Source: Gammaproteobacteria bacterium
GTDB taxonomy: Bacteria; Pseudomonadota; Gammaproteobacteria; Burkholderiales; Sulfuricellaceae
Length of the DNA: 64,000 nt
Reading direction: 5' to 3'
Assembly: GCA_018823025.1 (NCBI GenBank)
Contig: JAHJJI010000089.1
Location: 1-64,000, forward strand
Shown: positions 10,691-31,270 of the stretch, in pieces
How positions within the stretch are numbered: position 1 is the first letter of the stretch
Layout of the letters: every line of letters starts with the position of its first letter
The notes under the pieces: model-generated
Told to the model about the DNA's origin: nothing
The model's database searches: none
What the model saw: only the letters and a program-made list of their open reading frames with translations
Program-made: the position numbers and the translations under genes

Positions 10691-13486
10691 ATGCATAATT
10701 TCGGCAGTAATAAGCGGGTAAACAAGTGGGTTATGCTTTTGACGATCGTCGTGCTAATCGGGGGAGGAACAACCGCCTGTAGCAAGGTCGAAAACACCCA
10801 GGCACTAATCTCTCAAGCCAAGCAGTTTCAGCAAAAGGGGGACAACCAGGCCGCCATTATTCAGCTTAAGAACGCCTTGCAGAAAACCCCGGATGATGCC
10901 GAAGCCCGCTATCTCTTAGGCATGATTTATCAGGAAACCGGCGATCCCGCTTCGGCCGAGAAAGAACTACGCAAGGCTCTGGCGCTAGGCATGGGCCGTG
11001 ACAAGGTGGCGCCGGGACTAGGAAAAGTCTTGCTGGTGCAAGGACAATTCCAGAATGTTCTGGATGAAACAGACCAAACCGCAGCCAAGAAACCAACCTC
11101 CCCGGAAATACTGGGTTTGCGCGGAAATGCCTATCTCGGCCTGGGTAAACACCAGGATGCCAAGCAATCATTCGAGCAGGCGCTCCAGTCCAGGGCTGAC
11201 TTTGCCGATGCCCTGCTCGGGATGGCCCGTCTCGCCATCGCGGACAAAAACATCGATGCTGCTGTGAGCTTCACCGATCTCGCGGTGAACAAAAACCCGA
11301 AAAATATCGACGCCTGGCTTTTCAAAGGTGATTTGCTTCGAGCCCAAGGGAAGATCGAACCTGCCCTGGACGCCTACGGCGAAACTCTGAAGATCATGCC
11401 GGACAACACGTCGGCACGTCTGAGCAGAGCGTCTGTAGAACTTGCCGCCGGAAAATTTGACGCGGCCCGCGCCGACATCGAGGCAGCGCGTAAGAAGGAG
11501 CCAAAAAACCTAATGGTCGGTTACTTGCAGGCGCTGCTCGATTTCCGCCAGGGGAAACACGCCGCAGCGCGTGACTCCCTACAGCAAATAATGCGCGTCG
11601 CACCCAATCATATGCCCAGCGTGCTACTTGCAGGCGCAGTCCAATTTTACTTGGGCTCGCTACAACAGGCCGAACAACATCTGAAAACCTATCTGGGCAA
11701 TGACCCGAACAGCCTCTACGCACGCAAACTGCTGGCCACAACCCAATTGCGGCAGGGGCAGCCGGACGAGGCTGCGCGCACGCTTGTGCCGCTTGACCCT
11801 GACAACTCGAACGACGCCGGCGTGCAGATAATCGCCGCTGAAATAGCCCTCACGAAAAAACAGTTCGCGCAAGCCTCTGTGCACTTCGAGAAGGCCGCGC
11901 AGATCAACCCGAGTAACGCCGCCATCCGCACCGAACTGGGTCTTTCGCGTATGGCGCAAGGCGACAAGCGCGCGCTTGCCGACCTGCAAATCGCCTCTGG
12001 ACTGGAGGATGAAAGCGGTCGCGCCGACATCTTTATCGTCCTCAGCCAGATCAAAAACAAGCAATACGATGCGGCACTCACCAGCATAGCCGTGCTTGAA
12101 AAGAAAATTCCGCAAAGCCCTTTGCCGTGGAATTACCGGGCAGCCGCCTACCTTGGCAAAAAAGACATCGCAAAAGCGCGCGACAGTCTCGAACACGCGC
12201 TCAAACTCGATCCCAAATTTTTCCCTGCTGCCGCCAATCTCGCCCAGCTTGATCTCAAGGACGGACAGACCACGAATGCGCGCAAACGCTTCGAGGCCAT
12301 TCTCAAAGCCGATCCCAAACATCTCCAGGCCATGCTGGCCATGGCTGATCTGAGCCTGCTCCAGAAGGACGAAAAAGCTTACACCAGCTGGCTGGAAAAA
12401 GCGGCCATCGCTAACCCGCAAGCCATCCAGCCGAACTTACTATTAGCGCGCTATCTGCTGGCCAAAGGCGAAAACACCAAAGCCGTGCTCGCCGCGCGCG
12501 AAGCGGTCAACGCCCAACCCAAAAATCCGACTGCGCTCGACCTGCTCGGCACCGCCCAGTTCGCCAGCAAAGATCTGAGCAACGCCTTGGACACCTACCG
12601 CAAACTCGCCAATCAACTCCCCAATCAGGCTGAACCGCGATTGAAACTCGCCCAGGTTCAGATAGCGATGAAGCAACCCGGGGACGCGCGCAAAACCCTG
12701 CAAGAGGCACTGGGGATGAAACCCGATTTGATCGAGGCGCAGCTCATGCTCGGCGTCCTCGAGATCCAGTCTGCGCGGTATGACGAGGCGCATAAAATCG
12801 CCAAACAGATCCAGCAGCGACAACCCGCCTCCCCAGCGGGACTGGTGCTGGAAGGAGACATAGCCCTGGCGCGCAAGCAATATACCGCCGCGCTCGCCGC
12901 ATTTGAACGGGCACACAAACTCTCCCCCTCTCCTGCCACGCTGATTCGCCTGCACCAGGCGCTGGTCGGTACCGGGCGATTTGAAGAAGGTGAGAAACGG
13001 CTTGCCTCTTGGCTCGCCAGCCATCCGCAGGACGGCGGAACCCGGCTTTATCTGGCTGAGCACCTGATCGCGCGCGGCGCATTCAAAGCGGCCTCGGAAC
13101 ATTACCTGCTCCAGAATCAGCAAAGCCCGGGTAACCTTATTGTCCTCAACAATCTCGCTTGGGCGTTATCGGAACTCAAAGACAATCGCGCACTTTCGTA
13201 TGCCGAACAGGCGCTCAAACTCAAGCCCGACAATCCAACCATTATGGACACACTGGGCTGGATCCTGGTACAGCAAGGACAAACTGAACGCGGAATTAAA
13301 TTGTTGCAGCAGGCGCTGTCGAAGGTGCCCGATGCGGGTTCGATTCACTGGCACCTGGCTTATGGATTTTACCGGGCGGGCGACCGCACCCACGCCAGGC
13401 AGGAACTAAAACGATTGCTCGACAGCGGCCTAGGCTTCCCGGAAGAAGCCGGAGCACGCGAATTACTCAAACAACTGGGAGGATAA
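10691..13486 (+). CDS. prsT: PEP-CTERM system TPR-repeat lipoprotein PrsT
   Basis: This 931-residue exported protein has an N-terminal hydrophobic segment ending in TTAC-SK, consistent with a lipoprotein signal cut before Cys. The remainder is almost entirely tandem tetratricopeptide repeats (for example AIIQLKNALQKTPDDAEARYLLGMIYQETGDPASAEKEL split over repeats 1-2), running to LLKQLGG. Length and layout fit PrsT, the giant TPR lipoprotein that travels with prsK/prsR in exosortase systems and is thought to scaffold polysaccharide export or surface-protein sorting. A second copy follows after only six bases. Base composition and codon use resemble the neighbours. Confidence 0.93.
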   Translation: MHNFGSNKRVNKWVMLLTIVVLIGGGTTACSKVENTQALISQAKQFQQKGDNQAAIIQLKNALQKTPDDAEARYLLGMIYQETGDPASAEKELRKALALGMGRDKVAPGLGKVLLVQGQFQNVLDETDQTAAKKPTSPEILGLRGNAYLGLGKHQDAKQSFEQALQSRADFADALLGMARLAIADKNIDAAVSFTDLAVNKNPKNIDAWLFKGDLLRAQGKIEPALDAYGETLKIMPDNTSARLSRASVELAAGKFDAARADIEAARKKEPKNLMVGYLQALLDFRQGKHAAARDSLQQIMRVAPNHMPSVLLAGAVQFYLGSLQQAEQHLKTYLGNDPNSLYARKLLATTQLRQGQPDEAARTLVPLDPDNSNDAGVQIIAAEIALTKKQFAQASVHFEKAAQINPSNAAIRTELGLSRMAQGDKRALADLQIASGLEDESGRADIFIVLSQIKNKQYDAALTSIAVLEKKIPQSPLPWNYRAAAYLGKKDIAKARDSLEHALKLDPKFFPAAANLAQLDLKDGQTTNARKRFEAILKADPKHLQAMLAMADLSLLQKDEKAYTSWLEKAAIANPQAIQPNLLLARYLLAKGENTKAVLAAREAVNAQPKNPTALDLLGTAQFASKDLSNALDTYRKLANQLPNQAEPRLKLAQVQIAMKQPGDARKTLQEALGMKPDLIEAQLMLGVLEIQSARYDEAHKIAKQIQQRQPASPAGLVLEGDIALARKQYTAALAAFERAHKLSPSPATLIRLHQALVGTGRFEEGEKRLASWLASHPQDGGTRLYLAEHLIARGAFKAASEHYLLQNQQSPGNLIVLNNLAWALSELKDNRALSYAEQALKLKPDNPTIMDTLGWILVQQGQTERGIKLLQQALSKVPDAGSIHWHLAYGFYRAGDRTHARQELKRLLDSGLGFPEEAGARELLKQLGG

Positions 13487-13492
13487 TTAATC

Positions 13493-16372
13493 ATGAAGAA
13501 ATACGCTGTTGCGCACCCCTGTACACGCTGGGACTCCGCAATTCTCAAGCATCCAGCAAGATCGATCATGCGCCACTTCAGCCTGATGATTCTTCTCCCG
13601 CTTCTATTACTGGCTGGTCTGTCCCCAATCAGCGGCTGTAGCCGCAATCTAACTCCTGTCGAACATGTCACAAAGGCCAAGGAGCACATGGACAAAGGCG
13701 AATATCGCCCAGCACTTATTGAATTAAACAACGCGCTTCAAAAAGATCCCAACTCGGTAGAAGGGCGCTGGTTACTAGGTAAAGTCGCAGTAAATCTGGG
13801 TGATGGCGCCCGCGCAGAAAAAGAAATCAAAAAAGCCACTGAGTTGGGTTTGAAGCGCGCGTCAACACAGGTTACTTTAGTCAAGGCCATTCTGTTACAG
13901 GGCGACCTGGATCGGGTGATGACAGAAAGCGGCACACTGCCGCCCGATGTGTCTAAAACGGATCAGGCCGCTATCCTCGGACTGCGGGGACAGGCCTTTA
14001 TCGCCAAGGGCCAGTTCGACCTGGCGCAACAGGCCCTGGAGCAGGCCTTGCAAATCAAGTCCGATTCGGTCCCTGCATTGATCGGCATGACCGCCCTGCA
14101 TGGCTACCAGCGCCACTATGATATCGCCCGATCATGGGTAGAAAAAGCGCTGAAGGCGGATTCGTCCTCTGTCGATGCCTGGAGCGCTCTGGGAGATCTG
14201 GAACTGGCCCAGGAGAGGTTGGCAGAGGCGGAAAAAGCCTACGATAGTGCCATCAAGCACAGAGCTACACCCTATTTCGAACACGCCAAACGAGCACAAG
14301 TACGTACCCAGCTTAAAAAATTCCAGGAGGCGGCAGCCGACATCAAGGTCTTAAAAGAATCGGGGTTTAAAGACCATCCCTATGTGAATTACATCGCCGG
14401 GCTGAATTATTTCGCCCAGAAAAAATATCAGGAAGCGGCAACGGCATTCCAGGCCAGCTACCAGGCTGTTCCCGCCTTTCTGCCCAACAGAATCTACCTG
14501 GCCACCGCCCATCTCATGCTCGGCAACACCGAGCAGGCGCTCAATCATGCGCAACAGATTTTTGCGCTCGCGCCCCGCTCCAGAGCGGCTAAAAACCTGC
14601 TTGGCAGCATTCTGATCAGCCGAGTCGAATACGATGGCGCAAAAGGCATCCTGCAAAAAACCCTGACCAATTCCCCCAATGATCCCCAGGCACTGGGCAT
14701 GATGGCCACCGTCTCCATGCTGGAGGGCGAGACGGCAAAAGGGCTGGAATACGCCAAAAAACTTGCCGCGCTGGAACCCGACTCGAAACCGGCCCAGGAC
14801 ATGCTCATGGTGGCAAAACTGATGGCCGGTGAAGCGCTAGACAAGACTATCAGCCAGACCGGCAATCAGGCCGGCGCTACGGGCGATGCTTACACCCAGG
14901 AACTCATGCTGGCGCTCGCCGCCTTCCGTGACAACAAACTCAAGGAAACCCTCGAACTCGCCAAAGCGCTCCATGCCCGTTACCCGGACAAAGTTGACCC
15001 GCCCAAACTGATGGCAGCCTGCTATCTCGCCGCAGCCCAGTGGGATCAGGGCAAGGCCGAACTGGAAAAAGTCCTCAAGCTCCAGCCCAATGAACCCTCT
15101 GCCACCCGCAACCTCGCCAAGGTAGAAGCCCTGCAAGGCAACTATCCGCGGGCGAAAACCCTGCTGAAAGCCCTGCTGAAAGCCCAGCCCGGCGACACCA
15201 ATGCCGCACAGCTACTGGCCAGTGTCGATAGCCTGCTGGGCAATCCTGTTGCTGCCCTCGAGGTGCTGGAGCAGGCGTCGAAAAGTAACCCCAATGACCT
15301 GAACCTGCGCGCTCACCTCGGACAAACCGCTCTAACAGCGGGCCGCCCTGCCGCGGCGCTGGACATCACCCGCGAACTGACGGATGCCCAGTTTCGCCAG
15401 CAACCAGCGCTGCTGGAACTGCGCGGCAAAGCTCTGCTGTTGACTGGAGATAACGCATCCGCCGCCAGCACCTTCGAGAAGTGGACGAAAATCGCCCCTA
15501 ACTCTGCTCCCGCCCATTTTCAATACGCCAATGCCCTGGCCGGCCAGAATGATGCATCCCGCGCCCGCAAAGCACTAGAGCAAGCGATAAAACTCGACCC
15601 CCGCTACCTGCCTGCTCGCGTGGGAGAAATCAAGATGCGCGCGCAATTCCGCGAACTGGATCAGGCAAAAAAGGCGCTCGCCAAACTCCGGCAGGATTTT
15701 GGCGACCGGGTCGAAGTGCTGAGCATCGAGGGATGGTTTGCGTTGGGTACCAACGATTTCCCTGTTGCCGAACAAAAATTTGCCGCGGCCCTCAAGAAAG
15801 CCCCGGCTTCGGAACTGGTTGTTCTCACCAGCCGGGCGCAGTGGGCACAGAAAAAACGGGAGCCCGCCCTCAAAACCTTGCGCGACTGGCTGAAGGACCA
15901 CCCCAATGATGTGCTAGTCCATATGCAACTGGCTGGCGCTTATTTGGATATGGGCAAGGACGCGGATGCCTTGGCAGCCTATGGCCAGGTCGTCAAAATC
16001 GTCCCCCAGCATGTGCCTGCTCTCAACAACCTGGCCTGGCTGAATCGGGACAAAGCCCCCAAACAAGCCATGGACTACGCCCAGCAGGCCTATCAATTGG
16101 CTCCCCAAGACCCCTACGTGCTTGATACCCTGGGCATGCTGACACTCAAAAATGGCAATCCGATGCGCGCCGTCAGCCTGTTGCGCGATGCCGCCACCCG
16201 TGCCCCGGCCGATCCCAAAATCCAGATGCATCTGGGCAACGTGCTGGTCCAGCAGAAACGCTTTGGCGAAGCGCAGAAAGTCCTGGAAACCCTGATGCAG
16301 AAGCATCCCAACACGCCTGAGGCCAAGGAAGCCCGCACTTTGTTGGAGTCATCCCGCAGCTCGGGACGCTGA
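13493..16372 (+). CDS. Second PrsT-type TPR lipoprotein
   Basis: This 959-residue protein is a PrsT homologue: a hydrophobic stretch ending at SGC-SRN (lipobox-like), then TPR units over nearly the whole length (ALIELNNALQKDPNSVEGRW resembles AIIQLKNALQKTPDDAEARY of the first copy). The start at 13493 is favoured by GGGAGGA nine bases upstream, overlapping the prsT stop. It leaves a long 50-residue leader; ATG 13568 (MRHFSLMILL) would give a more usual signal peptide but has no good ribosome site. Co-transcribed with prsT and the glycosyltransferase. Two tandem but diverged copies suggest division of labour, or hetero-assembly. Confidence 0.9.
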   Translation: MKKYAVAHPCTRWDSAILKHPARSIMRHFSLMILLPLLLLAGLSPISGCSRNLTPVEHVTKAKEHMDKGEYRPALIELNNALQKDPNSVEGRWLLGKVAVNLGDGARAEKEIKKATELGLKRASTQVTLVKAILLQGDLDRVMTESGTLPPDVSKTDQAAILGLRGQAFIAKGQFDLAQQALEQALQIKSDSVPALIGMTALHGYQRHYDIARSWVEKALKADSSSVDAWSALGDLELAQERLAEAEKAYDSAIKHRATPYFEHAKRAQVRTQLKKFQEAAADIKVLKESGFKDHPYVNYIAGLNYFAQKKYQEAATAFQASYQAVPAFLPNRIYLATAHLMLGNTEQALNHAQQIFALAPRSRAAKNLLGSILISRVEYDGAKGILQKTLTNSPNDPQALGMMATVSMLEGETAKGLEYAKKLAALEPDSKPAQDMLMVAKLMAGEALDKTISQTGNQAGATGDAYTQELMLALAAFRDNKLKETLELAKALHARYPDKVDPPKLMAACYLAAAQWDQGKAELEKVLKLQPNEPSATRNLAKVEALQGNYPRAKTLLKALLKAQPGDTNAAQLLASVDSLLGNPVAALEVLEQASKSNPNDLNLRAHLGQTALTAGRPAAALDITRELTDAQFRQQPALLELRGKALLLTGDNASAASTFEKWTKIAPNSAPAHFQYANALAGQNDASRARKALEQAIKLDPRYLPARVGEIKMRAQFRELDQAKKALAKLRQDFGDRVEVLSIEGWFALGTNDFPVAEQKFAAALKKAPASELVVLTSRAQWAQKKREPALKTLRDWLKDHPNDVLVHMQLAGAYLDMGKDADALAAYGQVVKIVPQHVPALNNLAWLNRDKAPKQAMDYAQQAYQLAPQDPYVLDTLGMLTLKNGNPMRAVSLLRDAATRAPADPKIQMHLGNVLVQQKRFGEAQKVLETLMQKHPNTPEAKEARTLLESSRSSGR

Positions 16373-19756: not shown

Positions 19757-20977
19757 CTAACCCAAAACTTCCGAAACGAACGCCCGAAAACGTTGCCCGG
19801 TATCCACTTGCCTGAACCGCTCGCCCGCCTGCACGGCTGCCTGAGCGTAGACGGGGGTTTCAAGCAGGGCACGGACAGCTTCTTTCAGTTGGGCGGATCG
19901 GACACACGCTGCCCGCAGGGATAAGCCCGCGCCCAAGAGTTCGATGGCGTTCATGTTGAGCAACTGATCCATGTTGGAGCAGATTCCCAGGATGGGCACC
20001 CCAGTGGCTAAAGCCTGGTAGGTGGTCAGGCTGCCGCCATTGCAGATGACCAGGCTTGCGCGCTGAGCAACGATATCCAGTGGCAGATAGTCGGCCACGA
20101 AGGCATTGGCGGGCACATCAGGCAGGTCAATTTTGCCTGCGGTGGCGGCTATCACAGTGATCGGCAGTTCAGACAAGGCGAATAAGGCCATCGGCAACAA
20201 GTCCGCTCGGCCCGAGCTGCCCAGGGTCAACAATACCACGGGGTTTTTGTCCGGCAGGCGATCCCACCAGTCCGGCAGGGGCGCGCGAGCAGACCAGAGT
20301 GGCGGACCAAGATAACGGTGGTTGGCAGGCAACGGTCGTGTGGGAACCAACTCGGGCACATCGGCATACAGGGTGTAATCGCCCCAGGCGTAGACATTTC
20401 TTAAATCCGACCCCAGCGGCGGCAGCCCGTAATGACGGCGCACCCGGTTCAAGGGTCGGGCATGCAGGGCAAAGGCCATGGGCCTGACGGTGTCGAACAG
20501 TTTTTGCGCCAGGCGGACGCCCAGAATCCGGGTCATGGGCAGATCGGGTACCGGATAGACAGTGTCGGCGAACGGGCTCCAGTAGGCATTAACCAAGGCG
20601 GCATAGGGGATGCGGCGCAGCGGCGCGCTCACGGCCAGCGACAGCCGGAAGTCTCCGACCACCAGATCGGGTTTGACGCTGTCGAGCAGCACCAGGTCGT
20701 CTTCGACGTACTGGGTGAGCGTCTCGACGCTATACAGTGGCTTGCCCCGGGCAAGGGCTTGTGCGAATTCGGCGGAGGGGATGGATCGAATGGGATGGAA
20801 GGCGCAGTCAAGCGGCGCTTCCAGGTCAGCATAGCGGGGGTCCGATGCGACAACCACTTCGTACGCAGCCGGATCGAGCGCCTTCGCCAGCGTTACAATC
20901 CGCGCGAAATGCGCAAGCGTGACCGCTTCAGCAACAAGAAGAATGACTGGCTTGTTTCGGGTTTGCATTACACTCAT
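19757..20977 (-). CDS. GT1-type (MGT-like) glycosyltransferase
   Basis: This 406-residue GT-B glycosyltransferase is related to the one at 16379-17581. The N-terminal region (ILLVAEAVTLAHFARIVTLAKAL) is the acceptor half. The donor half has VVLLTLGSSGRADLL and LVICNGGSLTTYQALATGVPILGI, where the usual GGxGT is GGSLT. The start could be ATG 20977 or ATG 20968. It is the first gene of a two-gene minus-strand operon with the hexapeptide transferase. It is divergent from the permease operon across 266 bases in which I see no gene or -24/-12 motif. Confidence 0.85.
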   Translation of the reverse strand: MSVMQTRNKPVILLVAEAVTLAHFARIVTLAKALDPAAYEVVVASDPRYADLEAPLDCAFHPIRSIPSAEFAQALARGKPLYSVETLTQYVEDDLVLLDSVKPDLVVGDFRLSLAVSAPLRRIPYAALVNAYWSPFADTVYPVPDLPMTRILGVRLAQKLFDTVRPMAFALHARPLNRVRRHYGLPPLGSDLRNVYAWGDYTLYADVPELVPTRPLPANHRYLGPPLWSARAPLPDWWDRLPDKNPVVLLTLGSSGRADLLPMALFALSELPITVIAATAGKIDLPDVPANAFVADYLPLDIVAQRASLVICNGGSLTTYQALATGVPILGICSNMDQLLNMNAIELLGAGLSLRAACVRSAQLKEAVRALLETPVYAQAAVQAGERFRQVDTGQRFRAFVSEVLG

Positions 20978-21243
20978 TCGCGGGAAAGTAATACCATAAC
21001 ACAGTGATTATTTTGTATTATGGCTCATGCAATGAAATTAGTGGGAGTTCACCCGGATGCGTGGCATCACAAGGATAACCCGACGGTCAATACGAAGTGC
21101 GCCGAAGCCGCGAGCCACAGGCGTGACTGGTCGTGCATCCATCGCTCGCAGCCCGGATTGCCACGACTCCTTGGCTTTCGTAAGGACGCTATTCCGGCAA
21201 TTATTGGATTGCTCAATTGAAGATTCCACCACAGGGGCGTTCC

Positions 21244-22467
21244 ATGGCTAACCTGCTGATTGCTGCGCGCAACCTTGCACGCAATCGGCGGCGGGCACTG
21301 TCAGCCTTGCTTACGGTGGCTGCCGGCGTTGTTGCGCTGGTGCTCGCCGACGGCTTCACTCAGTGGATTTTATGGGCGATGCGCGAAGGTACGATCCAGT
21401 CCCAATTAGGCCACATTCAGGTCATGCGACCCGGATATCTCAAAGCGGGCGCGGCCAATCCTTATGCTTATGTATTGCCGGAGAGCTTGCCGCAGCGCAA
21501 AGAGATCGAATCCACTCCCGGCATCAAGGTGGTGGCGCCAAGGCTGGCGGTGACCGGGCTCATCAGCCACGGCGAGACGACAATAGCTTTTGTAGCGGAT
21601 GGTGTCGACCCGCAAAAGGAGGCGCTGTTGAGCAAGGCATTCCGTATCGTGGATGGCCATGATCTGTCGAGCCTGACTGCCCAGGAGGTGGTGCTGGGGC
21701 GTGGCTTGGCGCGCAATCTCGGGGTAACCCAGGGTGCCACCATAGCACTGCTGGCAACCACTTCAGGCGGTAGCATCAACGCTGTCGAGGCGAAAGTCGC
21801 CGGGATATTTATCAGCGCCAATCAAGCCTACGACGATGCCGCTCTGCGTCTGCCCATCGGCTTGGCACAGTCACTGCTGCGCGTTAACGGCGCCCACGCC
21901 TGGCTGGTGCTGCTCGATGACACCGAGCGCACGGACGATTATCTCACCCAGTTCCGCGCCCGCTTCCCCATGCCGGAGAATAAGCTAGAGTTCGTGCCCT
22001 GGTACCAGCAGGCAGATTTCTACAACAAGACGGTGGCGCTGTTCTCGCAGCAGATGAACGTGCTGCGGCTGATCATTGGCTGCATTATCGTGCTCAGCAT
22101 TTCCAACATGCTGGTGATGAATGTGCTCGAGCGTACCGGCGAGATCGGCACGCTGCTGGCCATTGGCTTTAAGCGCAAAAAAATCCTTCACCTGTTCGCC
22201 ATCGAGGGACTGTTGCTCGGGCTGGCCGGCGCATCTCTGGGGCTGGGCGCCGGCTACGGGCTGGCCGAAGCGATCTCCGCGATTGGCATTCCCATGCCAC
22301 CGCCCCCCGGCATGGAAGAGGGTTACACCGGCGAAATCCGGGTCACCTTGAACGTGGTGATAAATGCGTTTCTGATTGCATTCATCACCACTGCGCTGGC
22401 GGGTTTGTATCCGGCATGGAAAGCTTCGCGCCTGCAAATCATCAACGCGTTGCGTCACAATATTTGA
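21244..22467 (+). CDS. FtsX/LolCE/MacB-type ABC permease, first copy
   Basis: This 407-residue inner-membrane permease has the MacB/LolC topology: one N-terminal helix (LSALLTVAAGVVALVLA), a large periplasmic domain of about 220 residues and three C-terminal helices, ending WKASRLQIINALRHNI. The frame extends to TTG 21217, but ATG 21244 with AGGGG upstream is the better start. It shares the motif MPPPPG followed by GYT and IR with the permease 14 bases downstream, so the two arose by duplication and probably form a heterodimer. The ATPase is likely the FHA-ABC protein at 24671. Type VII ABC systems of this kind extract lipoproteins or export molecules mechanically; cargo unknown. Confidence 0.9.
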   Translation: MANLLIAARNLARNRRRALSALLTVAAGVVALVLADGFTQWILWAMREGTIQSQLGHIQVMRPGYLKAGAANPYAYVLPESLPQRKEIESTPGIKVVAPRLAVTGLISHGETTIAFVADGVDPQKEALLSKAFRIVDGHDLSSLTAQEVVLGRGLARNLGVTQGATIALLATTSGGSINAVEAKVAGIFISANQAYDDAALRLPIGLAQSLLRVNGAHAWLVLLDDTERTDDYLTQFRARFPMPENKLEFVPWYQQADFYNKTVALFSQQMNVLRLIIGCIIVLSISNMLVMNVLERTGEIGTLLAIGFKRKKILHLFAIEGLLLGLAGASLGLGAGYGLAEAISAIGIPMPPPPGMEEGYTGEIRVTLNVVINAFLIAFITTALAGLYPAWKASRLQIINALRHNI

Positions 22468-22481
22468 GGACTGCGTAAGCC

Positions 22482-23693
22482 ATGTTCAAGCTCGCCTTCC
22501 GCAACATCTTCCGCCAGCGTTTGCGCACTGCACTGACACTGGCGGCAATCATCACCGGGGTGGTCGCCATCATCATCAGCGGCGGCTTTGTCGAGGATGT
22601 GTTCGTGCAGCTGCGCGAATCGACAATCCATTCGCGCATCGGGCACGTGCAAATTTTGAGGAGCGGCTATCTCGAGTACGGTCGGCGCGACCCGGCGCAT
22701 TATATGATCGCGCAGCCGAAGGACGTAGTGGACGCGGTACAGTCCATTCCGCATGTGCAGGCCATGATGACCCGAGTAAACTTTTCCGGGCTGGCCAACA
22801 ACGGACGCGCCGATTTGCCCATTATCGGCGAAGGCGTTGAACCAGGCAGGGAAGCGCAACTGGGAACAGCCACCACCATTGTTGCCGGCCGCCCGTTGAA
22901 GGATGCGGACACCTTCGGCGCCGTGATCGGTGAAGGTGTCGCCGCCGCCCTGCATCTGCGCCCCGGCAGCTTCGTAACCTTGATGGTGAATACGCCAGAA
23001 GGTGCACTGAACACCCTTGAGTATGAAGTCGTCGGCGTGTTCCGAACTTTCTCCAAGGATTACGATGATCGAGCCGTACGCATTCCGTTATCAGCCGCCC
23101 AGGAATTACTGTTTACCCGGTCGGTACATAGCGCTGTCGTGTTGTTGGATGACACCGCCGCAACCGATGCGGTGGCCGCGATCATCAGAGCCAAGCTGGA
23201 GCCACTCGGTTACGTCGTGAAGCCCTGGCATGAATTGGCCGATTTTTATCAAAAGACCGAGGCCCTGTACCGACGCCAGTTCGGTGCGCTGCAGGCTATC
23301 ATTCTTGTCATGCTGGTATTGAGCGTGGCCAGCACCATCAACATGGTGGTCTATGAACGCACCGGCGAATTCGGAACCCTGCTCGCTCTGGGCCTGCGCC
23401 GGCGCCAAATCTTCAAGCTCGTCCTGCTCGAAAATGCGCTGCTGGGCTTGCTCGGCAGCCTGGTCGGCGTGGTCGTGGGAAGCGTGCTTGCGAGCTTGAT
23501 ATCGGGCATCGGCATATCCATGCCGCCGCCGCCCGGCTCGAACGTGGGCTACACTGCTACGATTCGACTGGTGCCGTGGGTGCTTGTGATGGCGGCCCTG
23601 ACTGGCGCGCTGGCGGCGATTATGGCTGCCGTGCTTCCGGCTCGTCGCGCCTCACGCCTGCCGGTAGTGGAGGCGCTGCGCCATAATATTTGA
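22482..23693 (+). CDS. FtsX/LolCE/MacB-type ABC permease, second copy
   Basis: This 403-residue paralogue of the preceding permease has the same layout: an N-terminal helix (LTLAAIITGVVAIIISGG), a periplasmic MacB-type domain and three C-terminal helices (MLVLSVASTINMVVYERTGEFGTLLALG, NALLGLLGSLVGVVVGS and VLVMAALTGALAAIMAAV regions). It carries MPPPPGSNVGYT and ends RLPVVEALRHNI. Its stop lies nine bases from the convergent stop of the LolA-like gene, with no evident terminator between them. Confidence 0.9.
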   Translation: MFKLAFRNIFRQRLRTALTLAAIITGVVAIIISGGFVEDVFVQLRESTIHSRIGHVQILRSGYLEYGRRDPAHYMIAQPKDVVDAVQSIPHVQAMMTRVNFSGLANNGRADLPIIGEGVEPGREAQLGTATTIVAGRPLKDADTFGAVIGEGVAAALHLRPGSFVTLMVNTPEGALNTLEYEVVGVFRTFSKDYDDRAVRIPLSAAQELLFTRSVHSAVVLLDDTAATDAVAAIIRAKLEPLGYVVKPWHELADFYQKTEALYRRQFGALQAIILVMLVLSVASTINMVVYERTGEFGTLLALGLRRRQIFKLVLLENALLGLLGSLVGVVVGSVLASLISGIGISMPPPPGSNVGYTATIRLVPWVLVMAALTGALAAIMAAVLPARRASRLPVVEALRHNI

Positions 23694-23702: not shown

Positions 23703-24515
23703 TCAGCGACTGAGTTTCTTCAGGTAATCCTTGGTGAATACCTTGTCCGGCAGGTCACGCATGACCATGTCGCCATATTCGAGCACCGAACGTCGACCGC
23801 GGCGCAAGGCATCTTCTATCACCAGTCGAGTCGGTCGCGTTTCCCCGCCCAGTGCACGAAACTCCTGGTAGAGGCCGGTTTTCAGCAGACGGCCCGAAAG
23901 CGCATAGAACTCGGCTTTATAAGGCCGACTGTTTTTTGAGTTCACCCAGAAGAGCACCTTGCGATATGTGACACCGCTATCGACTGCATCCAATTGTAAA
24001 ACGTGATAGGACTCACCATCGATTTTCTCTGTGCGCAGAAGTCTGGGTTCGTAATCACCCACAAAATTGGCGCGAGCCAGGTCGCCATTCGCAACCTGTC
24101 CGGTCAGTTTCTGCGAGAGCGGCAAACGAATCGGTTGTGACAGGTTGGGCAGGAAGGCCCACAGGTCGCGATCCCGCATCAGCAGAATCTGCCCCCGGTC
24201 AACCACCGGCGCCGTTGTCTGCACCAGGGTCTGGTCGTTACCTTTGGAGAGTATCCGGTAAGCGCGTACGTCTTCAGCGGCATCGGGTTCGGTTGTCGTG
24301 ATGGTCACGTCAACCTGGAAGCTTTCGTCAGGGAAACGGATACGGTCTGCGCGAGTCAGCATTTCACGAGCAACGGAATCTCCACCTGTGGTGTCGGCAG
24401 CCAGCGCCGGCCTGAAAATCAACAACAGCAGCGCGACGGCAAAAACCGTCCAGAAAGGCTTCCTCCGATAGCACGTAATAAAAATGTCGCGGGGATAAGA
24501 TGGAATCATAGCCAT
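23703..24515 (-). CDS. LolA-like outer-membrane lipoprotein-sorting protein
   Basis: This 270-residue protein has a signal peptide (FWTVFAVALLLLIFRPALA-AD). The mature domain has the beta-rich pattern of the LolA-like family often annotated as outer membrane lipoprotein-sorting protein: SFQVDVTITTTEPDAAEDVRAY, LLMRDRDLWAFLPNLSQPIRLPL, then YHVLQLDAVDSGVTYRKVLFWVN and TRLVIEDALRRG. These proteins carry lipid-modified cargo across the periplasm in a hydrophobic half-barrel. It sits on the opposite strand between the permeases and the ATPase. Its presence makes a complete inner membrane-periplasm-outer membrane route likely; it is not the housekeeping LolA by sequence or context. Confidence 0.85.
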   Translation of the reverse strand: MAMIPSYPRDIFITCYRRKPFWTVFAVALLLLIFRPALAADTTGGDSVAREMLTRADRIRFPDESFQVDVTITTTEPDAAEDVRAYRILSKGNDQTLVQTTAPVVDRGQILLMRDRDLWAFLPNLSQPIRLPLSQKLTGQVANGDLARANFVGDYEPRLLRTEKIDGESYHVLQLDAVDSGVTYRKVLFWVNSKNSRPYKAEFYALSGRLLKTGLYQEFRALGGETRPTRLVIEDALRRGRRSVLEYGDMVMRDLPDKVFTKDYLKKLSR

Positions 24516-24670
24516 AAGAGGTGTCCTGTCAGCTCAAAACGAATAAACTAAGATTATCGAATACTATATGATAAAGAGAATAAGTGGAGTCATGTGCATG
24601 CCAGGCAATAAGCAAAAATCTGAGTTTTGTCCGCGCCAGTATTGTTCCTGGACTACCAGAAGGAGGGGTC

Positions 24671-25654
24671 GTGGCTAGCCTCCTGATAAGTCAGGACCAG
24701 CAAATCCTGCGGAATATTCGACTCCACTCGGCGGACCTCAAGATTGGCCGCGCCTCGGAATGCGAGATACAACTGCCAGATCCGGGAATCAGCCGCAAAC
24801 ATGCGCGGATTACTTTAGTCGACGGCGTCTATTACCTGGAAGACTTGGGGAGCAGATGTGGCGTCTTCCTGAACGGAGAAAAAATCCAGCGTGCCCCACT
24901 GAAAAATGGCGACAAGCTCACGATTCACCACTTTCAACTGGATTTTGTTGCCGATGAAGAAAGCAATGCTGAACCTACGGCAGTAATCGTCGAGGCCAAA
25001 GGAGTAGGCAAAGAGTATGCCCTTGGAAAGCAAACCGTTACGGCATTGCGCAACATTTCCCTCACGATCCGTAAAGGCGAATTCATGGCGTTGGCGGGGC
25101 CGTCGGGGAGCGGCAAATCGACCATGCTCAACCTGATTGGCTGTATTGACACGCCGACCACGGGAAGCATCCTGATCGGGGGGCAGGACATCAGCGACAA
25201 AACACCCGATGAACTGGCCGATTTGCGACTGAACACGCTGGGTTTTGTCTTCCAGACCTTCAATCTGCTGCCGGTATTGTCAGCCTGGGAAAATGTCGAA
25301 TATCCCTTGTTGCAGCAACCTAATGTAACCAGAAAAACGCGGCAAGAACGCGTCCAGCATTATCTGAAGGTGGTTGGCCTGGAACCCTATGCGCACCACC
25401 GCCCCAACGAATTGAGCGGCGGGCAGCGCCAGCGGGTGGCGATCGCGCGCGCCCTCGCCACCCGTCCAAGCATCGTCCTGGCAGACGAACCGACTGCCAA
25501 CCTTGACCACAAAACCGGCGAAGGTATTCTCAGGCTGATGAAAGACCTCAACCAGGAAGAAGGCACGACCTTCATTTTTTCCACCCATGATGCGCGCGTC
25601 ATGGAGATGGCCGACCGGGTGATAGAACTGGCCGATGGCCAGATAATGGAATAG
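24671..25654 (+). CDS. ABC ATPase with N-terminal FHA domain
   Basis: This is a 327-residue cytoplasmic ATPase. The first ~100 residues are a forkhead-associated domain (LKIGRASECEIQLPDPGISRKHARI, then NGEKI), a phosphothreonine reader. The remainder is a LolD/MacB-type ABC domain with Walker A GPSGSGKST, Q-loop FVFQTFNLLP, signature LSGGQRQRVAIARAL, Walker B IVLADEPT and switch STHD. The start is GTG 24671 with AAGGAGGGG four bases upstream; the frame is open to 24584, but that extension has no ribosome site. The fusion implies control by a Ser/Thr kinase, or docking to a phosphorylated partner. It probably powers the two permeases upstream. Confidence 0.92.
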   Translation: MASLLISQDQQILRNIRLHSADLKIGRASECEIQLPDPGISRKHARITLVDGVYYLEDLGSRCGVFLNGEKIQRAPLKNGDKLTIHHFQLDFVADEESNAEPTAVIVEAKGVGKEYALGKQTVTALRNISLTIRKGEFMALAGPSGSGKSTMLNLIGCIDTPTTGSILIGGQDISDKTPDELADLRLNTLGFVFQTFNLLPVLSAWENVEYPLLQQPNVTRKTRQERVQHYLKVVGLEPYAHHRPNELSGGQRQRVAIARALATRPSIVLADEPTANLDHKTGEGILRLMKDLNQEEGTTFIFSTHDARVMEMADRVIELADGQIME

Positions 25655-25664: not shown

Positions 25665-27158
25665 ATGGGAGACCATTTTTTCCCAAAAACCCGATGGCTG
25701 GGTCAGCCACCAAGGTTTCTCGGGGTCTTGCTGCTGGGCCTGCTGATCACCCCCATCCCGGCGGGCGCAGCAGAAAAGAGCAAAAACCGCATGGATGTGG
25801 AATCCATCGACGACCTCTTTGGCAGCCCTCCCCCTGCCCCCAAGAAACCGGCAGAGAAAACCACCCCCCAGGACAAACCGACCGAAGCGCCGCAAGACAT
25901 CAGCGCACCTGCCGTGCCTGAATCCGTGCCGCCAAACCAGCCCTCATCCTCCGAACCGCACTTGGCCGGTTTTTATCAGAATGACCTGGCTTACACCTAT
26001 GCCGACAAAAAGCATTGGTCCAGATTCAACAACACCCTCGATCTCTCCACCCAAGGCCGCACGTCGGGTGGCGTGGCGTGGAAGCTGGGCGGGCGCGTCA
26101 ATTACGACCCAATCTACGACCTCGCCGACACCTACCCACAAGCGGTGCGCAATGATCAGCGTTTCGAGGCCATAATCCGTGAAGCCTATATGGATTTTTC
26201 GTCCGGCGACTGGGATTTTCGCTTGGGTCGACAGCATGTCGTCTGGGGCGAAATGGTCGGGCTGTTTTTTGCTGACGTGGTATCGGCCAAGGATATGCGC
26301 CAACTCGTGCTGCCGGATTTCGACATCATCCGCATCCCGCAATGGGCGGCGCGAGCCGAGTATTTTCTGGGCGATTTTCACGTCGAGGGCGTATGGATAC
26401 CCTACATGAGCTACGACAACATCGGCAAGCCCGGGGCCGAGTTCTACCCGTTCAATCCACCCGCCGTAGCCGGTACCGTCATTGCCGCGGAAAAACAACC
26501 CGTCGGCCTGGGTGAGGCGGCTTACGGAACGCGCTTGTCCTGGCTCAAGAGTGGCTGGGACGTTTCGGGTTTCTACTACACCGCCAACGATCCATCGGCA
26601 GCCTTCTCGCGCCAGATTGCGCTGCTACCCACCCCCACCATCACCTATCAGCCCATTCATGAGCGGATTCACCAATTGGGTGCCACTCTGGGCAAGGATC
26701 TGGGGCCGATGGTACTCAAGGCTGAGGCAATCTACACCAAAGACAAACTGTTCAACACCACCAGCGCCACCGATGCGGACGGCCTGGTCAAGCAAAACAT
26801 TCTGGATTACATCGTCGGGCTGGAATGGAGCTTTCCTCAGGAAACCCGCTTCAACGCGCAATTTTTTCAGCGCTGGTTCCCCGGCCACGATGCAGGCATC
26901 GTGCCGGACAAGACCGAAAGCGGTATCTCCCTCCTGTTCAGCACCCAGGCCCTGCACCCTAAGCTCGAACCAAAATTGCTGCTGATCCGGAGTTTAAACC
27001 GCGAAGACTGGGCCGCCCAGTTCAAACTCACCTGGAAACTGGACGGCAACTGGCGACTGGCAACCGGTGTCGATATTTTTACAGGGCCGCCAACGGGCCT
27101 GTTCGGTGCGTTCGACGATAAAGACCGGGTTTATACCGAGGTGCGCTACAGTTTTTGA
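25665..27158 (+). CDS. DUF1302-like outer-membrane beta-barrel protein
   Basis: This 497-residue exported protein has a signal peptide ending PAGA-AE. A Pro-rich linker follows (about 50-98, PPPAPKKPAEKTT and similar), then a long beta-barrel domain ending in VRYSF, whose C-terminal Phe is typical for Bam-assembled barrels. The segment WDFRLGRQHVVWGEMVGLFFADVVSAKDMRQ resembles the DUF1302 family. It starts ten bases after the FHA-ABC gene and is co-transcribed with it. Context suggests it is the outer-membrane end of the transport route; whether it is a channel or a receptor is open. Confidence 0.82.
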   Translation: MGDHFFPKTRWLGQPPRFLGVLLLGLLITPIPAGAAEKSKNRMDVESIDDLFGSPPPAPKKPAEKTTPQDKPTEAPQDISAPAVPESVPPNQPSSSEPHLAGFYQNDLAYTYADKKHWSRFNNTLDLSTQGRTSGGVAWKLGGRVNYDPIYDLADTYPQAVRNDQRFEAIIREAYMDFSSGDWDFRLGRQHVVWGEMVGLFFADVVSAKDMRQLVLPDFDIIRIPQWAARAEYFLGDFHVEGVWIPYMSYDNIGKPGAEFYPFNPPAVAGTVIAAEKQPVGLGEAAYGTRLSWLKSGWDVSGFYYTANDPSAAFSRQIALLPTPTITYQPIHERIHQLGATLGKDLGPMVLKAEAIYTKDKLFNTTSATDADGLVKQNILDYIVGLEWSFPQETRFNAQFFQRWFPGHDAGIVPDKTESGISLLFSTQALHPKLEPKLLLIRSLNREDWAAQFKLTWKLDGNWRLATGVDIFTGPPTGLFGAFDDKDRVYTEVRYSF

Positions 27159-27374: not shown

Positions 27375-27476
27375 ATTGGATTCAGGTGAGAGTAGAACGA
27401 GAGTGACTAGTGCAGTTCAGTCATCATGTATCTGGCTCGGCTTTTCCTTGCTGCTTTTCCATCAGGAGTCCGCATC

Positions 27477-28298
27477 ATGAAAACTCTAAATATGAAACTT
27501 AAGTTACTGCTAGCTGCCTTTGCCGCCCTCGCAGCCTGCAACGCCTCTGCAGGCTTGATCACCCAGTGGACGGTGGGCGTCAATACGATCTTCGATACCA
27601 CAACCGTAGTGCCGATACCGGGTGTCACCGTGGTCAATAACCAGACCCTGCGGTGGGGCACCAGCACAGGTTCCGGGCAAAGCGGGCTGAATATCACCGA
27701 TTCACCCAGCTCGGCCACCGTCTTCACCGATGGCGCCGCCGTTGCCAATGTATCGATTACCCACTTGAACCGGCCGGTCACCGGAACCTCTCTCAGCTCC
27801 GTTGATATATTGTCCACCTTGACACTGACGCCATTGGTTCCCGCACTTCCTGGACTGCCTTCGGCAACCATCACGTTCGGGGTCAACTTCGCGGAGACCC
27901 CCAACGGCGATAACCCATGCGCCGGCGGAGGTGCAAACGGTGTAGGCGTGAACATAAATGGCTGTGCCGATGTTTTCGTTATCGACCAGAATGCACTGAA
28001 CTTCGGCTTCATGTACGACACCGATGGTATCGGCGGAGATGATCCAGTTCAGTACTACATCAGCTTCTTCGAGCTCACCAGCGGACTCAACCCGCTGCCT
28101 TCTGTTGCCTGTGGTGCTGCTGGATCAACCGCACCTTGCCTCGGCTTCAGGACTCCGGAAGGGGCGGATACGACTTTCCAATTCGCATCGCTGATTACCA
28201 CCGAGCGTGTTTCAGTTCCCGAGCCTGGCATCTTGTCCCTGATGGGACTGGGGTTGGCTGGCATGGTCTTCGCCTCCCGCCGCCGCAAACAGGCCTAG
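27477..28298 (+). CDS. THxN-type PEP-CTERM surface protein
   Basis: This 273-residue secreted protein has a signal peptide (MKLKLLLAAFAALAACNASA) and a C-terminal sorting signal of VPEPG, LSLMGLGLAGMVFA and SRRRK. The body contains NNQTLRWGTSTGSGQSGL, VFTDG and SITHLNRPV, fitting the THxN family of PEP-CTERM proteins. ATG 27477 is chosen over 27426 because AGGAG lies nine bases upstream and the signal peptide then has normal length. Expected to be cut and released or anchored by an exosortase coded elsewhere. Function of the family is unknown. Confidence 0.9.
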   Translation: MKTLNMKLKLLLAAFAALAACNASAGLITQWTVGVNTIFDTTTVVPIPGVTVVNNQTLRWGTSTGSGQSGLNITDSPSSATVFTDGAAVANVSITHLNRPVTGTSLSSVDILSTLTLTPLVPALPGLPSATITFGVNFAETPNGDNPCAGGGANGVGVNINGCADVFVIDQNALNFGFMYDTDGIGGDDPVQYYISFFELTSGLNPLPSVACGAAGSTAPCLGFRTPEGADTTFQFASLITTERVSVPEPGILSLMGLGLAGMVFASRRRKQA

Positions 28299-28435: not shown

Positions 28436-29512
28436 TCAAAGCTGCAACAGCTTCTGCATGGGCAGGCGCAGGGATCGGCTGTCTGCTGACCGCCCGCTGC
28501 CGATTCGTCCGAGAAAGACAGCTTGTCCCACTGCATCGTTCCGCAACAACCGGGAAAGACGGGCACCCAGGTTTGCCGCTGTTTCCATGGCACCGGGCAA
28601 GCGGCTGAACACCCTGTTTTCACGCACATAGCGGGCAAAAATCAGCGGGGTCATCTCTGGCTGCAGTTGCAGACCCAGGCTTGTAGCCGTCAGCCAGAAG
28701 CGCTGAACCGCCCGGCCTGCAGCAACGTAATCGTCTATCGTCTCAGGCGCTTTGTGCGCCAGAAGGGCGAAATGGGCAGCACAGAACAGGCCGGGCAACA
28801 GATCCATTTCAATCCGCGGCATCAGGTGCCCAGCCAAATAAGTGTTAAAAAAATCGACACGTTGCCAACTCCCCATGACCCAGCGCATCAATTTGAGAGT
28901 CATCTTATCCAGCCCCAGCGCCTGATCGGGCACCTTGTCCTCGCTGTATCGGGCTTGCCATTCGATGATGCTGCGGTGAACCGTATAGGCCTCCGGCAGG
29001 GTGAGCCTGAGCTTGGCATTGTCGTACATTAATTTGGCCAACTGCCAGCGTTGTGGCCCGCCCTCGAACCAACGTACGGCGTAAGATTTTCCGACAGCGA
29101 TTTGCAGGGCCTGTTTTTGTGCTTCGGTGAGAGGAGTAGTACGCATGGGCCGACGCTGCACGGAGCGGTTCTTGATGTAGGGCAGCAAGGAATCCGGCGG
29201 CAATTGGCTATCCGGGATCAGGTCCACGAAATAGTCAGGGTGAGTATCCGGTGAGTCGGGATGGCGCCTGAACTCCGCCCGCAGGCCATGCGCACTGGCA
29301 GCGATGGCGAGGGTTTCCAGCAGCGCGCCCAAGGCAATCTGGCTGGGGTGGCCATCCAGGTCATAGACGCAATGATCGCGGGTATCAAAAGCGTGGACGA
29401 CCAGATGGCGTTCGTCGATGATCTCAAAGCGCCAGGGCTGAGTATTGTCGCCGGAGGGCGCCCAGCGGGCGAATTCGAGAATATCTGAGATGGGCTGGGG
29501 AATCGGGTCCAT
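28436..29512 (-). CDS. Nitroreductase-family protein of the acyl amino acid operon
   Basis: This 358-residue protein starts with ILEFARWAPSGDNTQPWRFEI, the FMN-binding N-terminus of nitroreductases. It also has a middle ALGALLETLAIAASAHGL segment and a C-terminal LTATSLGLQLQPEM segment typical of the fold. It is longer than simple nitroreductases (about 200 residues) and resembles the C-terminal half of Rv1355c-type fusions, in which a ThiF domain precedes a nitroreductase domain. Its ATG follows the ThiF stop with no gap (TAAATG), implying translational coupling. It may reduce or oxidise an intermediate activated by the E1-like partner; the reaction is not known. Confidence 0.85.
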   Translation of the reverse strand: MDPIPQPISDILEFARWAPSGDNTQPWRFEIIDERHLVVHAFDTRDHCVYDLDGHPSQIALGALLETLAIAASAHGLRAEFRRHPDSPDTHPDYFVDLIPDSQLPPDSLLPYIKNRSVQRRPMRTTPLTEAQKQALQIAVGKSYAVRWFEGGPQRWQLAKLMYDNAKLRLTLPEAYTVHRSIIEWQARYSEDKVPDQALGLDKMTLKLMRWVMGSWQRVDFFNTYLAGHLMPRIEMDLLPGLFCAAHFALLAHKAPETIDDYVAAGRAVQRFWLTATSLGLQLQPEMTPLIFARYVRENRVFSRLPGAMETAANLGARLSRLLRNDAVGQAVFLGRIGSGRSADSRSLRLPMQKLLQL

Positions 29513-30370
29513 TTAAAGTCCGAGCATGCGTTTGGCAAGGGCAATGGCGAGACGTTGCAGGGGGTTACGGTTACCGCCAGGTCGCCAGGTCAGCGCCAGC
29601 TTGTTGCGGTAGGCATCGAAGTGATAACCCCTGGGAGCTGTCCGAATCGGGCCTCGACCCAGAAGAATTTTCAGAGCTTCAGTCGCCGCCACGCCCGCGC
29701 AAAGCTGGCAAGCCATGATAGTGGATGGGCCCTTGCGGTTGGCCAGATCAACTGCTGAAGGGTCAGCCAGGTAGCCCATTTGCAGGCGGGCGGGTGCAAG
29801 TCCCATGAGGAAACGCAGGGGCTTTTCCGCCTCAGGACCATCGTCCAGACGAAAATAATCATTAAAGCTCATGCCTCCCGGCAAAAAATTGAGTATGGCC
29901 GTGCCCATGCCCAGAGGGGCGGCAGTAACGGCGGGAATATTTTTGGTCTCACAAGCAGCAAAGACCTGCTGACGAGCCTGAAAGGCGAAGAAATCCAGAC
30001 CATCGACGTAGATATCCACGCCATCCAGAAAGGCATCCAGGTTGTCTGCTGTCACACCGCCGGCAAATTCCTTGATTTCAAGCTCCGGATTGATGTCGCG
30101 CGCCTGGCGGATCATCACCTCCATCTTGCCCAGACCCAGAGTGCTGACCGTCGCTCCAGCCTGGCGGTTGAAATTAGCCAGATCGAAGGTATCGAACTCG
30201 GCCAGATGGAATTTTCCTATGCCCAGCCGACAAAGCGTCAGCAGGTGTACCCCTCCCACGCCACCCAAACCGGCAATCGCCACGCGTTTATGACGCAACT
30301 GTTGCTGCTCCTGCCGGGTAAGCCAGCCGATATTGCGGGAAAAAGCTTCATCATAGGTAAAGGATTGCAT
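29513..30370 (-). CDS. ThiF/MoeB-type E1-like adenylyltransferase
   Basis: This 285-residue protein has the E1-like adenylation fold. VAIAGLGGVGGVHLLTLCRLGIG is the nucleotide-binding loop, EFDTFDLANFNRQAG carries the conserved Asp, Asn and Arg, and VTADNLDAFLDGVDIYVDGLD is the second half. ACQLCAGVAATEALKILLG is the usual C-terminal helix. The paired CxxC zinc motifs of MoeB are absent. These enzymes adenylate a C-terminal carboxylate. No ubiquitin-like or ThiS-like partner is encoded nearby, so a small-molecule carboxylate, for example an N-acyl amino acid, is a possible substrate. It lies 30 bases after the FeeM-like gene and abuts the nitroreductase. Confidence 0.88.
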   Translation of the reverse strand: MQSFTYDEAFSRNIGWLTRQEQQQLRHKRVAIAGLGGVGGVHLLTLCRLGIGKFHLAEFDTFDLANFNRQAGATVSTLGLGKMEVMIRQARDINPELEIKEFAGGVTADNLDAFLDGVDIYVDGLDFFAFQARQQVFAACETKNIPAVTAAPLGMGTAILNFLPGGMSFNDYFRLDDGPEAEKPLRFLMGLAPARLQMGYLADPSAVDLANRKGPSTIMACQLCAGVAATEALKILLGRGPIRTAPRGYHFDAYRNKLALTWRPGGNRNPLQRLAIALAKRMLGL

Positions 30371-30400
30371 GCGATCAAACCAGAGAACCCCATCAGGGGA

Positions 30401-31270
30401 TCATTCTCCCCTAAGCAGGCGCTGCGTGATACCCAATTCATCATCATGCGAGAAAAAATAGGGGTAGATCGACCTCACACCAGTGGCGGCCGCCCCCATC
30501 CCGCCATAGCGGACTATCTGTTCATCCGCGTGGGTTGCATCCAGTCTCATCAGTACGGCTGGCGCATTGACCCTGGGGCACGTCTTTTCTTCTCCAAATG
30601 GTTCAAATCCCATCATGCGTTCATAGAAAAGCACATGGCGCGGATTCACTTCAATCAGAAAATCCGATGCGTGATGAATGTTGTGTCCATAAATGAATGC
30701 CATATGAAACAAAGAGGCCAATACACTTTTTGACTTGATATCATGATCCACGGCTAGCCGAGTGATATCGCAAAGTTTTCTTCCTTCTGCGCGCAGTTGA
30801 TCTGCTTCCTGCTTGTAAAGCTGGTCTACCACCATCCCTTGAGGGGAGTCCATGCCCAAAGACATTGTGCCCACCACTTTATCTTCCTGGTAGACCGCCA
30901 AGGTTATCTTGTTGGGATCATGTCTTAACGCATCGGCATCATAGCCGCGCCAGTCATACATTTTCTGGATGAGCAAACTGGCTGATTTACGGCGGTCTTC
31001 GCTGTTGGCAAGACGAACCTTGAAAACCTGCTGTTCGGCCTTTTCATCCTGCTGGTTCGCAATGTCCTGGGGCGCCGGTAAGGCGAGGTCTCTTAACCAG
31101 TTGGGTGCGAAGTTAGGCGAGAAGGCGACGATGGTTTTGTCCCATTCATCTGGCGTTCTATGGCGCTTCTTATTGCCAAAAAGAAATTTGCGAACATCCA
31201 GCATACTCCATGCATCCGCCTTCCTGCGGCCATGCATGATGCCAGAAAAGAAATTGTGTATATCAAGCAT
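30401..31270 (-). CDS. FeeM-like long-chain N-acyl amino acid synthase (GNAT fold)
   Basis: This 289-residue protein has a GNAT-type acyltransferase core of the FeeM kind: KVRLANSEDRRKSASLLIQ, ITLAVYQEDKVVGTMSLGMD, KLCDITRLAVDHD, then VNPRHVLFYERMMGFEPFG and CPRVNAPAVLMRLD. FeeM enzymes join a long-chain acyl group from acyl carrier protein to an amino acid. Such synthases have been reported linked to PEP-CTERM/exosortase systems in Gram-negative bacteria, which matches this context. An N-terminal ~95-residue extension (MLDVRKFLFGNKKRHRTPDE) is of unknown role. It is first in a three-gene operon with the ThiF-like and nitroreductase genes. The ribosome site at 31270 is weak. Confidence 0.82.
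   Translation of the reverse strand: MLDIHNFFSGIMHGRRKADAWSMLDVRKFLFGNKKRHRTPDEWDKTIVAFSPNFAPNWLRDLALPAPQDIANQQDEKAEQQVFKVRLANSEDRRKSASLLIQKMYDWRGYDADALRHDPNKITLAVYQEDKVVGTMSLGMDSPQGMVVDQLYKQEADQLRAEGRKLCDITRLAVDHDIKSKSVLASLFHMAFIYGHNIHHASDFLIEVNPRHVLFYERMMGFEPFGEEKTCPRVNAPAVLMRLDATHADEQIVRYGGMGAAATGVRSIYPYFFSHDDELGITQRLLRGE

Follow-up and report, generated by a model that had tools for sequence, protein, structure and literature searches.

The best-described relatives of the operon considered here are enzymes that build N-acyl-oxazolones (azlactones). In Mycobacterium tuberculosis, C12 tyrazolone is made by the acyltransferase TyzA, the ThiF homologue TyzB, and TyzC; TyzB is a cyclase dependent on adenosine triphosphate (ATP), and TyzC is a flavin oxidase of the nitroreductase superfamily that acts as an O2-dependent desaturase (PMC10404671). 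The Rv1356c-Rv1355c pair encodes TrzAS, which produces N-acyl tryptazolones, with Rv1355c being TrzS, a ThiF cyclase fused to a flavin mononucleotide (FMN) desaturase in which desaturation follows only after cyclisation (PMC12856293). Acyl-oxazolones are also made by OxzAB of Pseudoalteromonas rubra, according to work cited in PMC10404671, and cellular oxazolones have been found in M. tuberculosis, Mycobacterium smegmatis, and Rhodococcus jostii (PMC10404671, PMC12856293). The same three-gene operon has been described in Massilia kyonggiensis (kyonggic acid) and Thalassotalea (thalassotalic acid) and is also known from Stieleria, and the producers concerned in all three genera make N-acyl dehydrotyrosines (PMC12479983). 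The operon of interest, hereafter the triad, encodes a FeeM-like protein, a ThiF protein, and a nitroreductase-family flavoenzyme. It lies in a stretch of 64,000 nucleotides (the window; contig JAHJJI010000089.1 of assembly GCA_018823025.1) from a bacterium of the Sulfuricellaceae, order Burkholderiales.

The triad very probably encodes an N-acyl-oxazolone pathway. This assignment draws on gene identity, conservation, gene fusions, and active-site residues, the reactions themselves having been shown in homologues. The original prediction proposed a tight operon in which an N-acyl amino acid synthase supplies a free carboxylate, a ThiF-type enzyme activates it, and the flavoenzyme acts on the product. 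The layout is as proposed, with the genes read from the minus strand in the order FeeM-like, ThiF, nitroreductase, 30 bp between the first two, and the ThiF stop and nitroreductase start abutting (0 bp); family scans agree with all three identities. The proposed order of chemistry likewise corresponds to that of the homologous TyzACB and TrzAS systems. The suggestion that the chemistry of the ThiF/flavoenzyme pair is undescribed proved incorrect, as it has already been characterised as OxzAB, TyzACB, and TrzAS (PMC10404671, PMC12856293). The triad is a further case of a known pathway.

Profile scans place the FeeM-like protein in PF21926 at 192.5 bits (cut-off 27), and phmmer matches it to the solved FeeM structure 2G0B with an E value of 3.4e-16; its catalytic domain spans approximately residues 97-244 and is preceded by an N-terminal extension of about 90 residues. 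The ThiF protein scores 140.6 bits against PF00899 and 460.9 bits against NF006077/PRK08223 (cut-off 266), and alignment reveals a GxGGVGG motif and an Asp126 that agree with ThiF and TrzS. The flavoenzyme matches PF00881 at 40.9 bits (cut-off 23.5). The NF005901 model of the Rv1355c family, the TrzS equivalog (threshold 476 bits), is not reached by the flavoenzyme (118.2 bits) or the ThiF protein (78.9 bits), so that by sequence the pair is of the same kind as the Rv1355c family and belongs to another subfamily. The earlier comparison of the abutting pair with Rv1355c was nonetheless apt, Rv1355c being TrzS, a ThiF cyclase-FMN desaturase fusion (PMC12856293). Similarly, the flavoenzyme scores 126.7 bits against NF047509, the model of the Acg-family FMN oxidoreductases (threshold 199 bits), and is related to that family, with the same fold and as a separate subfamily. 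Promoter and terminator scans gave matches no more numerous than those in shuffled sequences.

The nearest named locus is that of Sulfuricella sp. T08, where the FeeM, ThiF, and flavoenzyme orthologues are 93, 97, and 91% identical to the window proteins and the gene order is kept, indicating that the triad consists of real genes and that the bacterium belongs to Sulfuricella or is closely related to it. In that locus (L034 4267-6082, the same as L046), a tandem pair of FeeM genes lies upstream of a single ThiF-flavoenzyme pair, with products that share 93% and 45% identity with the window FeeM protein. Another genome (G243) carries three FeeM genes in tandem, and such arrays may provide a wider range of acyl amino acids feeding one cyclase.

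Residues important for TrzS were located in the window proteins through the TrzS homologue of Mycolicibacterium sp. TY66 (L041), through which the TrzS numbering was transferred. Arg527 and Gln638 of the TY66 homologue are 111 residues apart, identical to the spacing of Arg540 and Gln651 in TrzS, and they align with Arg169 and Gln284 of the flavoenzyme in the window, both residues being invariant across 20 homologues. Asp126 of the window ThiF protein corresponds to Asp202 of the TY66 homologue and to the ATP-binding Asp217 of TrzS, although the spacing in this mapping is off by two residues. TrzS variants at Asp217, Arg540, and Gln651 are impaired (PMC12856293). The predicted flavoenzyme structure has a mean predicted local distance difference test (pLDDT) score of 92.3, and its top solved match is MsAcg (2YMV; Z 29.2, root-mean-square deviation 3.0, 297 residues aligned), followed by a runner-up at Z 16.1. 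The authors of the TrzS work likewise named MsAcg as the closest solved relative of their enzyme (PMC12856293).

Conservation of the triad was surveyed in 200 genomes of the order, with the ThiF subtype counted at an E value of 1e-60 or better and FeeM as a strong match. FeeM is present in 37 genomes and the ThiF subtype in 35; both occur in 32, of which 29 have them no more than 12 kb apart, mostly with a few hundred bases between them. A further 70 loci from named genomes were fetched independently, by ThiF alone. The flavoenzyme lies within 1 kb of ThiF in 63 of them, and an acyltransferase of the FeeM type or the exosortase-associated type lies within 4 kb in 55. Lack of conservation, one of the outcomes that the original prediction said would refute it, was thus not seen. 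ThiF homologues from Massilia share 62-68% identity with the window ThiF protein.

Several of the loci that lack a close flavoenzyme have a second, divergent one in the vicinity. A divergent nitroreductase-family protein with the motif APSADNSQ or similar was observed near ThiF at L093 7965-9074, L101 8150-9199, and L075 6909-7934; at L093 and L101 it substitutes for the usual flavoenzyme, and a secreted-looking open reading frame lies between it and ThiF. At five other loci (L058, L059, L078, L108, and L109), ThiF-flavoenzyme fusions stand beside an acyltransferase that is apparently of the PEP-CTERM/exosortase-associated type and not FeeM, and the first enzyme of the pathway seems to be exchangeable.

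The three activities also occur as fusions. The NCBIfam model PRK14852 describes FeeM, ThiF, and nitroreductase in a single chain and PRK14851 describes ThiF with nitroreductase, both annotated simply as 'hypothetical protein', and each of the three window proteins matches the corresponding part of these models. One such chain, a FeeM-ThiF-flavin oxidase protein, is encoded on plasmid pDVUL01 of Nitratidesulfovibrio vulgaris (L042, 4068-7037). Eight of the 35 ThiF matches in the order lie within open frames of at least 660 residues, and in the window's own genus ThiF and nitroreductase share one open frame in two genomes (L036, L037). Fusion and splitting within one genus suggest that the parts of the triad act together. 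N. vulgaris is a sulfate reducer, yet the flavin oxidases known from the pathway use O2; the fusion may use another electron acceptor or serve in a response to oxygen.

Based on these homologues, a three-step mechanism can be proposed. First, the FeeM-type enzyme, judged by its family, would transfer a fatty acyl group from acyl carrier protein or coenzyme A onto an L-amino acid, probably an aromatic one; the particular amino acid and acyl chain are a matter of inference. Next, the ThiF protein would use ATP to activate the free carboxylate, presumably as the acyl-adenylate expected of the ThiF family, and the amide oxygen would close the five-membered oxazolone ring, as has been shown for TyzB and TrzS. 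Finally, the FMN-containing flavoenzyme would use O2 to introduce an alpha-beta double bond, the reaction shown for TyzC and TrzS; the resulting lipid would be conjugated, yellowish, and acylating. If hydrolysed, this oxazolone would yield N-acyl dehydroamino acids resembling kyonggic acid.

Table 1. Triad and neighbouring features of the window, with predicted roles
Feature	Coordinates	Strand	Length (aa)	Family or model	Remark
FeeM-type N-acyl amino acid synthase	30401..31270	-	289	PF21926	TyzA/OxzA/TrzA role
ThiF-type ATP-dependent cyclase	29513..30370	-	285	PF00899, PRK08223	TyzB role
Nitroreductase-superfamily flavin-dependent oxidase/desaturase	28436..29512	-	358	PF00881	TyzC role
Two PrsT genes	10691..16372	+		TIGR02917, 970.2 and 624.6 bits (cut-off 312.2)	Tetratricopeptide repeat proteins, XrtA/PEP-CTERM system
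EryCIII/macrolide-type glycosyltransferase	16379-17581
EDSAP-1 family PEP-CTERM protein	17668-18708			289 bits	Second PEP-CTERM gene of the stretch
EryCIII/macrolide-type glycosyltransferase	19757-20977
LolC/E- or MacB-like permease 1	21217..22467	+		PF02687, PF12704; lolCE model 117.2 bits (cut-off 362.45)
LolC/E- or MacB-like permease 2	22482..23693	+		PF12704, PF02687
LolA-like periplasmic lipid/lipoprotein carrier	23703..24515	-		PF17131, 158.7 bits
FHA domain fused to LolD/MacB-type ABC ATPase	24584..25654	+		PF00498, PF00005; LolD 229.9 bits (equivalog cut-off 307.75)
Predicted outer-membrane beta-barrel, DUF1302	25665..27158	+		PF06980, 69.7 bits
THxN family PEP-CTERM surface protein	27426..28298	+		NF038125, 226.4 bits (cut-off 85)	Convergent with the triad

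The triad is flanked by genes for a putative transport system and for PEP-CTERM proteins (Table 1). The transporter genes fall below the LolCE and LolD equivalog cut-offs, identifying the transporter as Lol-like and not the housekeeping Lol system, with a putative lipid or lipoprotein cargo. The model of the barrel is all-beta and closest to the Occ porins, AlgE, and Wzi (Z approximately 20); its mean pLDDT is just 59.9, which is middling, and it was used for fold class only. The distance from the triad to the two PrsT genes is about 12-18 kb, and the genome holds two exosortases. Many loci have a homologue of the second glycosyltransferase close to the triad, making glycosylation of the triad product possible. 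A special link between the THxN gene and the triad was considered and rejected: ThiF and THxN occur together in 4 of 200 genomes and are close in the window's own genome alone. THxN instead lies within 12 kb of the exporter permease in five of seven genomes and near the barrel in four of seven, so it goes with the exporter. In N. vulgaris, THxN genes adjoin the fused triad, and in other genomes they stand next to exporter genes. A different transporter, judged by eye to be MMPL/RND-like, lies near FeeM-ThiF at L071 8690-11056 and recalls the mmpL9 gene beside tyz in M. tuberculosis; it is a possible alternative exporter.

The identity of the end product and the substrate of the ThiF protein each admit another explanation. 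The end product could be an open-chain N-acyl-2,3-dehydroamino acid, with ThiF making an oxazolone only as a transient species, which prepares the molecule for desaturation before being hydrolysed inside the cell. Such a course would accord with the obligatory cyclisation that precedes desaturation in TrzS (PMC12856293) and with the Massilia, Thalassotalea, and Stieleria producers, which gave open dehydroamino acids and no oxazolone (PMC12479983). However, acid hydrolyses oxazolones and alcohols react with them during extraction (PMC12856293), so that they may have gone unseen in those producers for this reason, and M. tuberculosis, M. smegmatis, and R. jostii cells do contain them. By our own inference, the open-ring acids may be either end products or extraction artefacts, and an open-chain end product appears appreciably less than evenly probable. 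The results from these producers also weigh against the N-acyl-oxazolone assignment itself, leaving ThiF with only a presumed role in Massilia, Thalassotalea, and Stieleria, as do two other points: for Sulfuricella and the studied loci the oxazolone pathway is a prediction from genes, and 14 of the 70 fetched loci have ThiF and the flavoenzyme but no recognised acyltransferase nearby. It is highly improbable, in turn, that ThiF activates a ubiquitin-like or sulfur-carrier protein coded elsewhere, making the operon a protein-modification or sulfur-transfer module. The protein belongs to the E1 superfamily and matches Escherichia coli ThiF and MoeB, but it lacks the first CxxC of the former, and members of its subfamily (PRK08223/PRK14851-2) are joined in one chain with the flavoenzyme and FeeM or encoded next to them. 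The nearest characterised relatives use N-acyl amino acids. As the original prediction observed, no ubiquitin-like acceptor is present in the operon, which consists of three genes only, with no carrier, E2, or rhodanese among them (partners elsewhere in the genome were not searched for). Ubiquitin-like conjugation was therefore rejected, as the operon has no partner genes and this subfamily of ThiF goes together with FeeM and the flavoenzyme.

With the N-acyl-oxazolone pathway retained as the preferred assignment, the relation of the triad to its neighbours must also be weighed. The genes for the Lol-like transporter, the barrel, and the PEP-CTERM proteins may instead belong to a lipoprotein or exopolysaccharide system that has nothing to do with the triad and simply occupies the same genomic hotspot, an explanation that falls just short of an even chance. 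PrsT, glycosyltransferase, and PEP-CTERM genes do share the stretch, and several genomes have the exporter and barrel but not ThiF; the presence of exporter genes without ThiF in 8 of 20 genomes counts against tying the exporter to the pathway. On the other hand, permease 2 lies within 10 kb of the triad ThiF gene in every one of the 12 genomes of the order in which the two occur together, and the barrel gene lies within 9 kb in 10 of 12, with gene order and orientation varying between genomes; the corresponding p-values are indicative only, since they treat genomes as independent and take the chance of closeness as 2%. As a control for relatedness, the triad-exporter linkage was mapped on the ThiF tree, where it changes at least five times (10 by parsimony), a count that truncated contigs can inflate. 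Together with the varying gene order, these changes point to repeated association rather than a single inherited block. Two genomes without the triad ThiF (G106 and G122) nevertheless have FeeM beside the exporter, and Bdellovibrio plasmid pBdHAGR2 (L043) groups LolA-like, ABC ATPase, permease, and ThiF genes, the stretch shown being without FeeM and the flavoenzyme. In the Oxalobacteraceae (Massilia and relatives), no exporter genes turned up in the triad flanks, and PrsT often lies directly upstream of FeeM. Judging from gene neighbourhood, the Lol-like genes and barrel might serve to move the product, or the compound from which it is made, out to the outer membrane or the cell surface, a tentative proposal that is somewhat less than evenly probable. 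A fuller version, in which the permease pair, FHA-ATPase, LolA-like carrier, and barrel would form a dedicated trans-envelope route bringing N-acyl-oxazolones or N-acyl amino acid precursors to the surface, where the reactive azlactone could acylate or anchor exosortase-sorted PEP-CTERM proteins such as THxN, is unlikely, and the reaction of an azlactone with surface proteins is speculation.

The open-licence literature yielded no description of N-acyl amino acids together with a LolA-like protein, DUF1302, or permease, and among the matches listed there for PEP-CTERM together with Lol, MacB, or DUF1302 were only general papers of the LolCDE/MacB/FtsX type. The exporter and PEP-CTERM setting of the triad may be new. 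The triad is widespread in betaproteobacteria, including Sulfuricella, Nitrosospira, Nitrotoga, Thiobacillus, and Massilia, and is placed in the N-acyl-oxazolone pathway; the conserved Lol-like exporter, barrel, and PEP-CTERM genes suggest that the product acts at the cell envelope or outside. The triad also predicts which environmental bacteria make acyl-oxazolones, compounds that acid or methanol extraction may have missed. If true, export to the surface would tie the association of N-acyl amino acid synthases with PEP-CTERM systems to that of oxazolones with the cell envelope, both of which are unexplained.

Comparison with the described systems shows where the window operon agrees with and departs from each. 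Like the window, TyzACB comprises three separate enzymes (an acyltransferase, a single-domain FMN oxidase, and a ThiF cyclase) with adjacent genes; in contrast, tyzA is read from the other strand and encodes a divergent protein of the FeeM fold, whereas the window has one operon for all three, belongs to a betaproteobacterium, and has exporter and PEP-CTERM genes nearby. TrzAS, including the M. smegmatis and R. jostii homologues, shares the order of ThiF followed by flavin oxidase and the Asp, Arg, and Gln mutated in TrzS; it differs in that TrzS is a single chain where the window has abutting genes, and in that TrzA uses tryptophan and short chains. OxzAB, compared here by its description, also combines an acyltransferase, ThiF, and a flavin oxidase in a proteobacterium, with OxzB described as a fusion. 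The N. vulgaris PRK14852 fusion has the same three domains in the same order and THxN PEP-CTERM genes beside it, but is one chain of 989 residues whose function is only predicted. Finally, the kyonggic and thalassotalic acid loci have the N-acyl amino acid synthase, ThiF, and nitroreductase genes with short or overlapping junctions, while their reported products are open dehydro acids (PMC12479983); the Massilia homologues retrieved keep the gene order of the window, and differ from it in that PrsT is often directly upstream and the flanks are without the Lol-like exporter.

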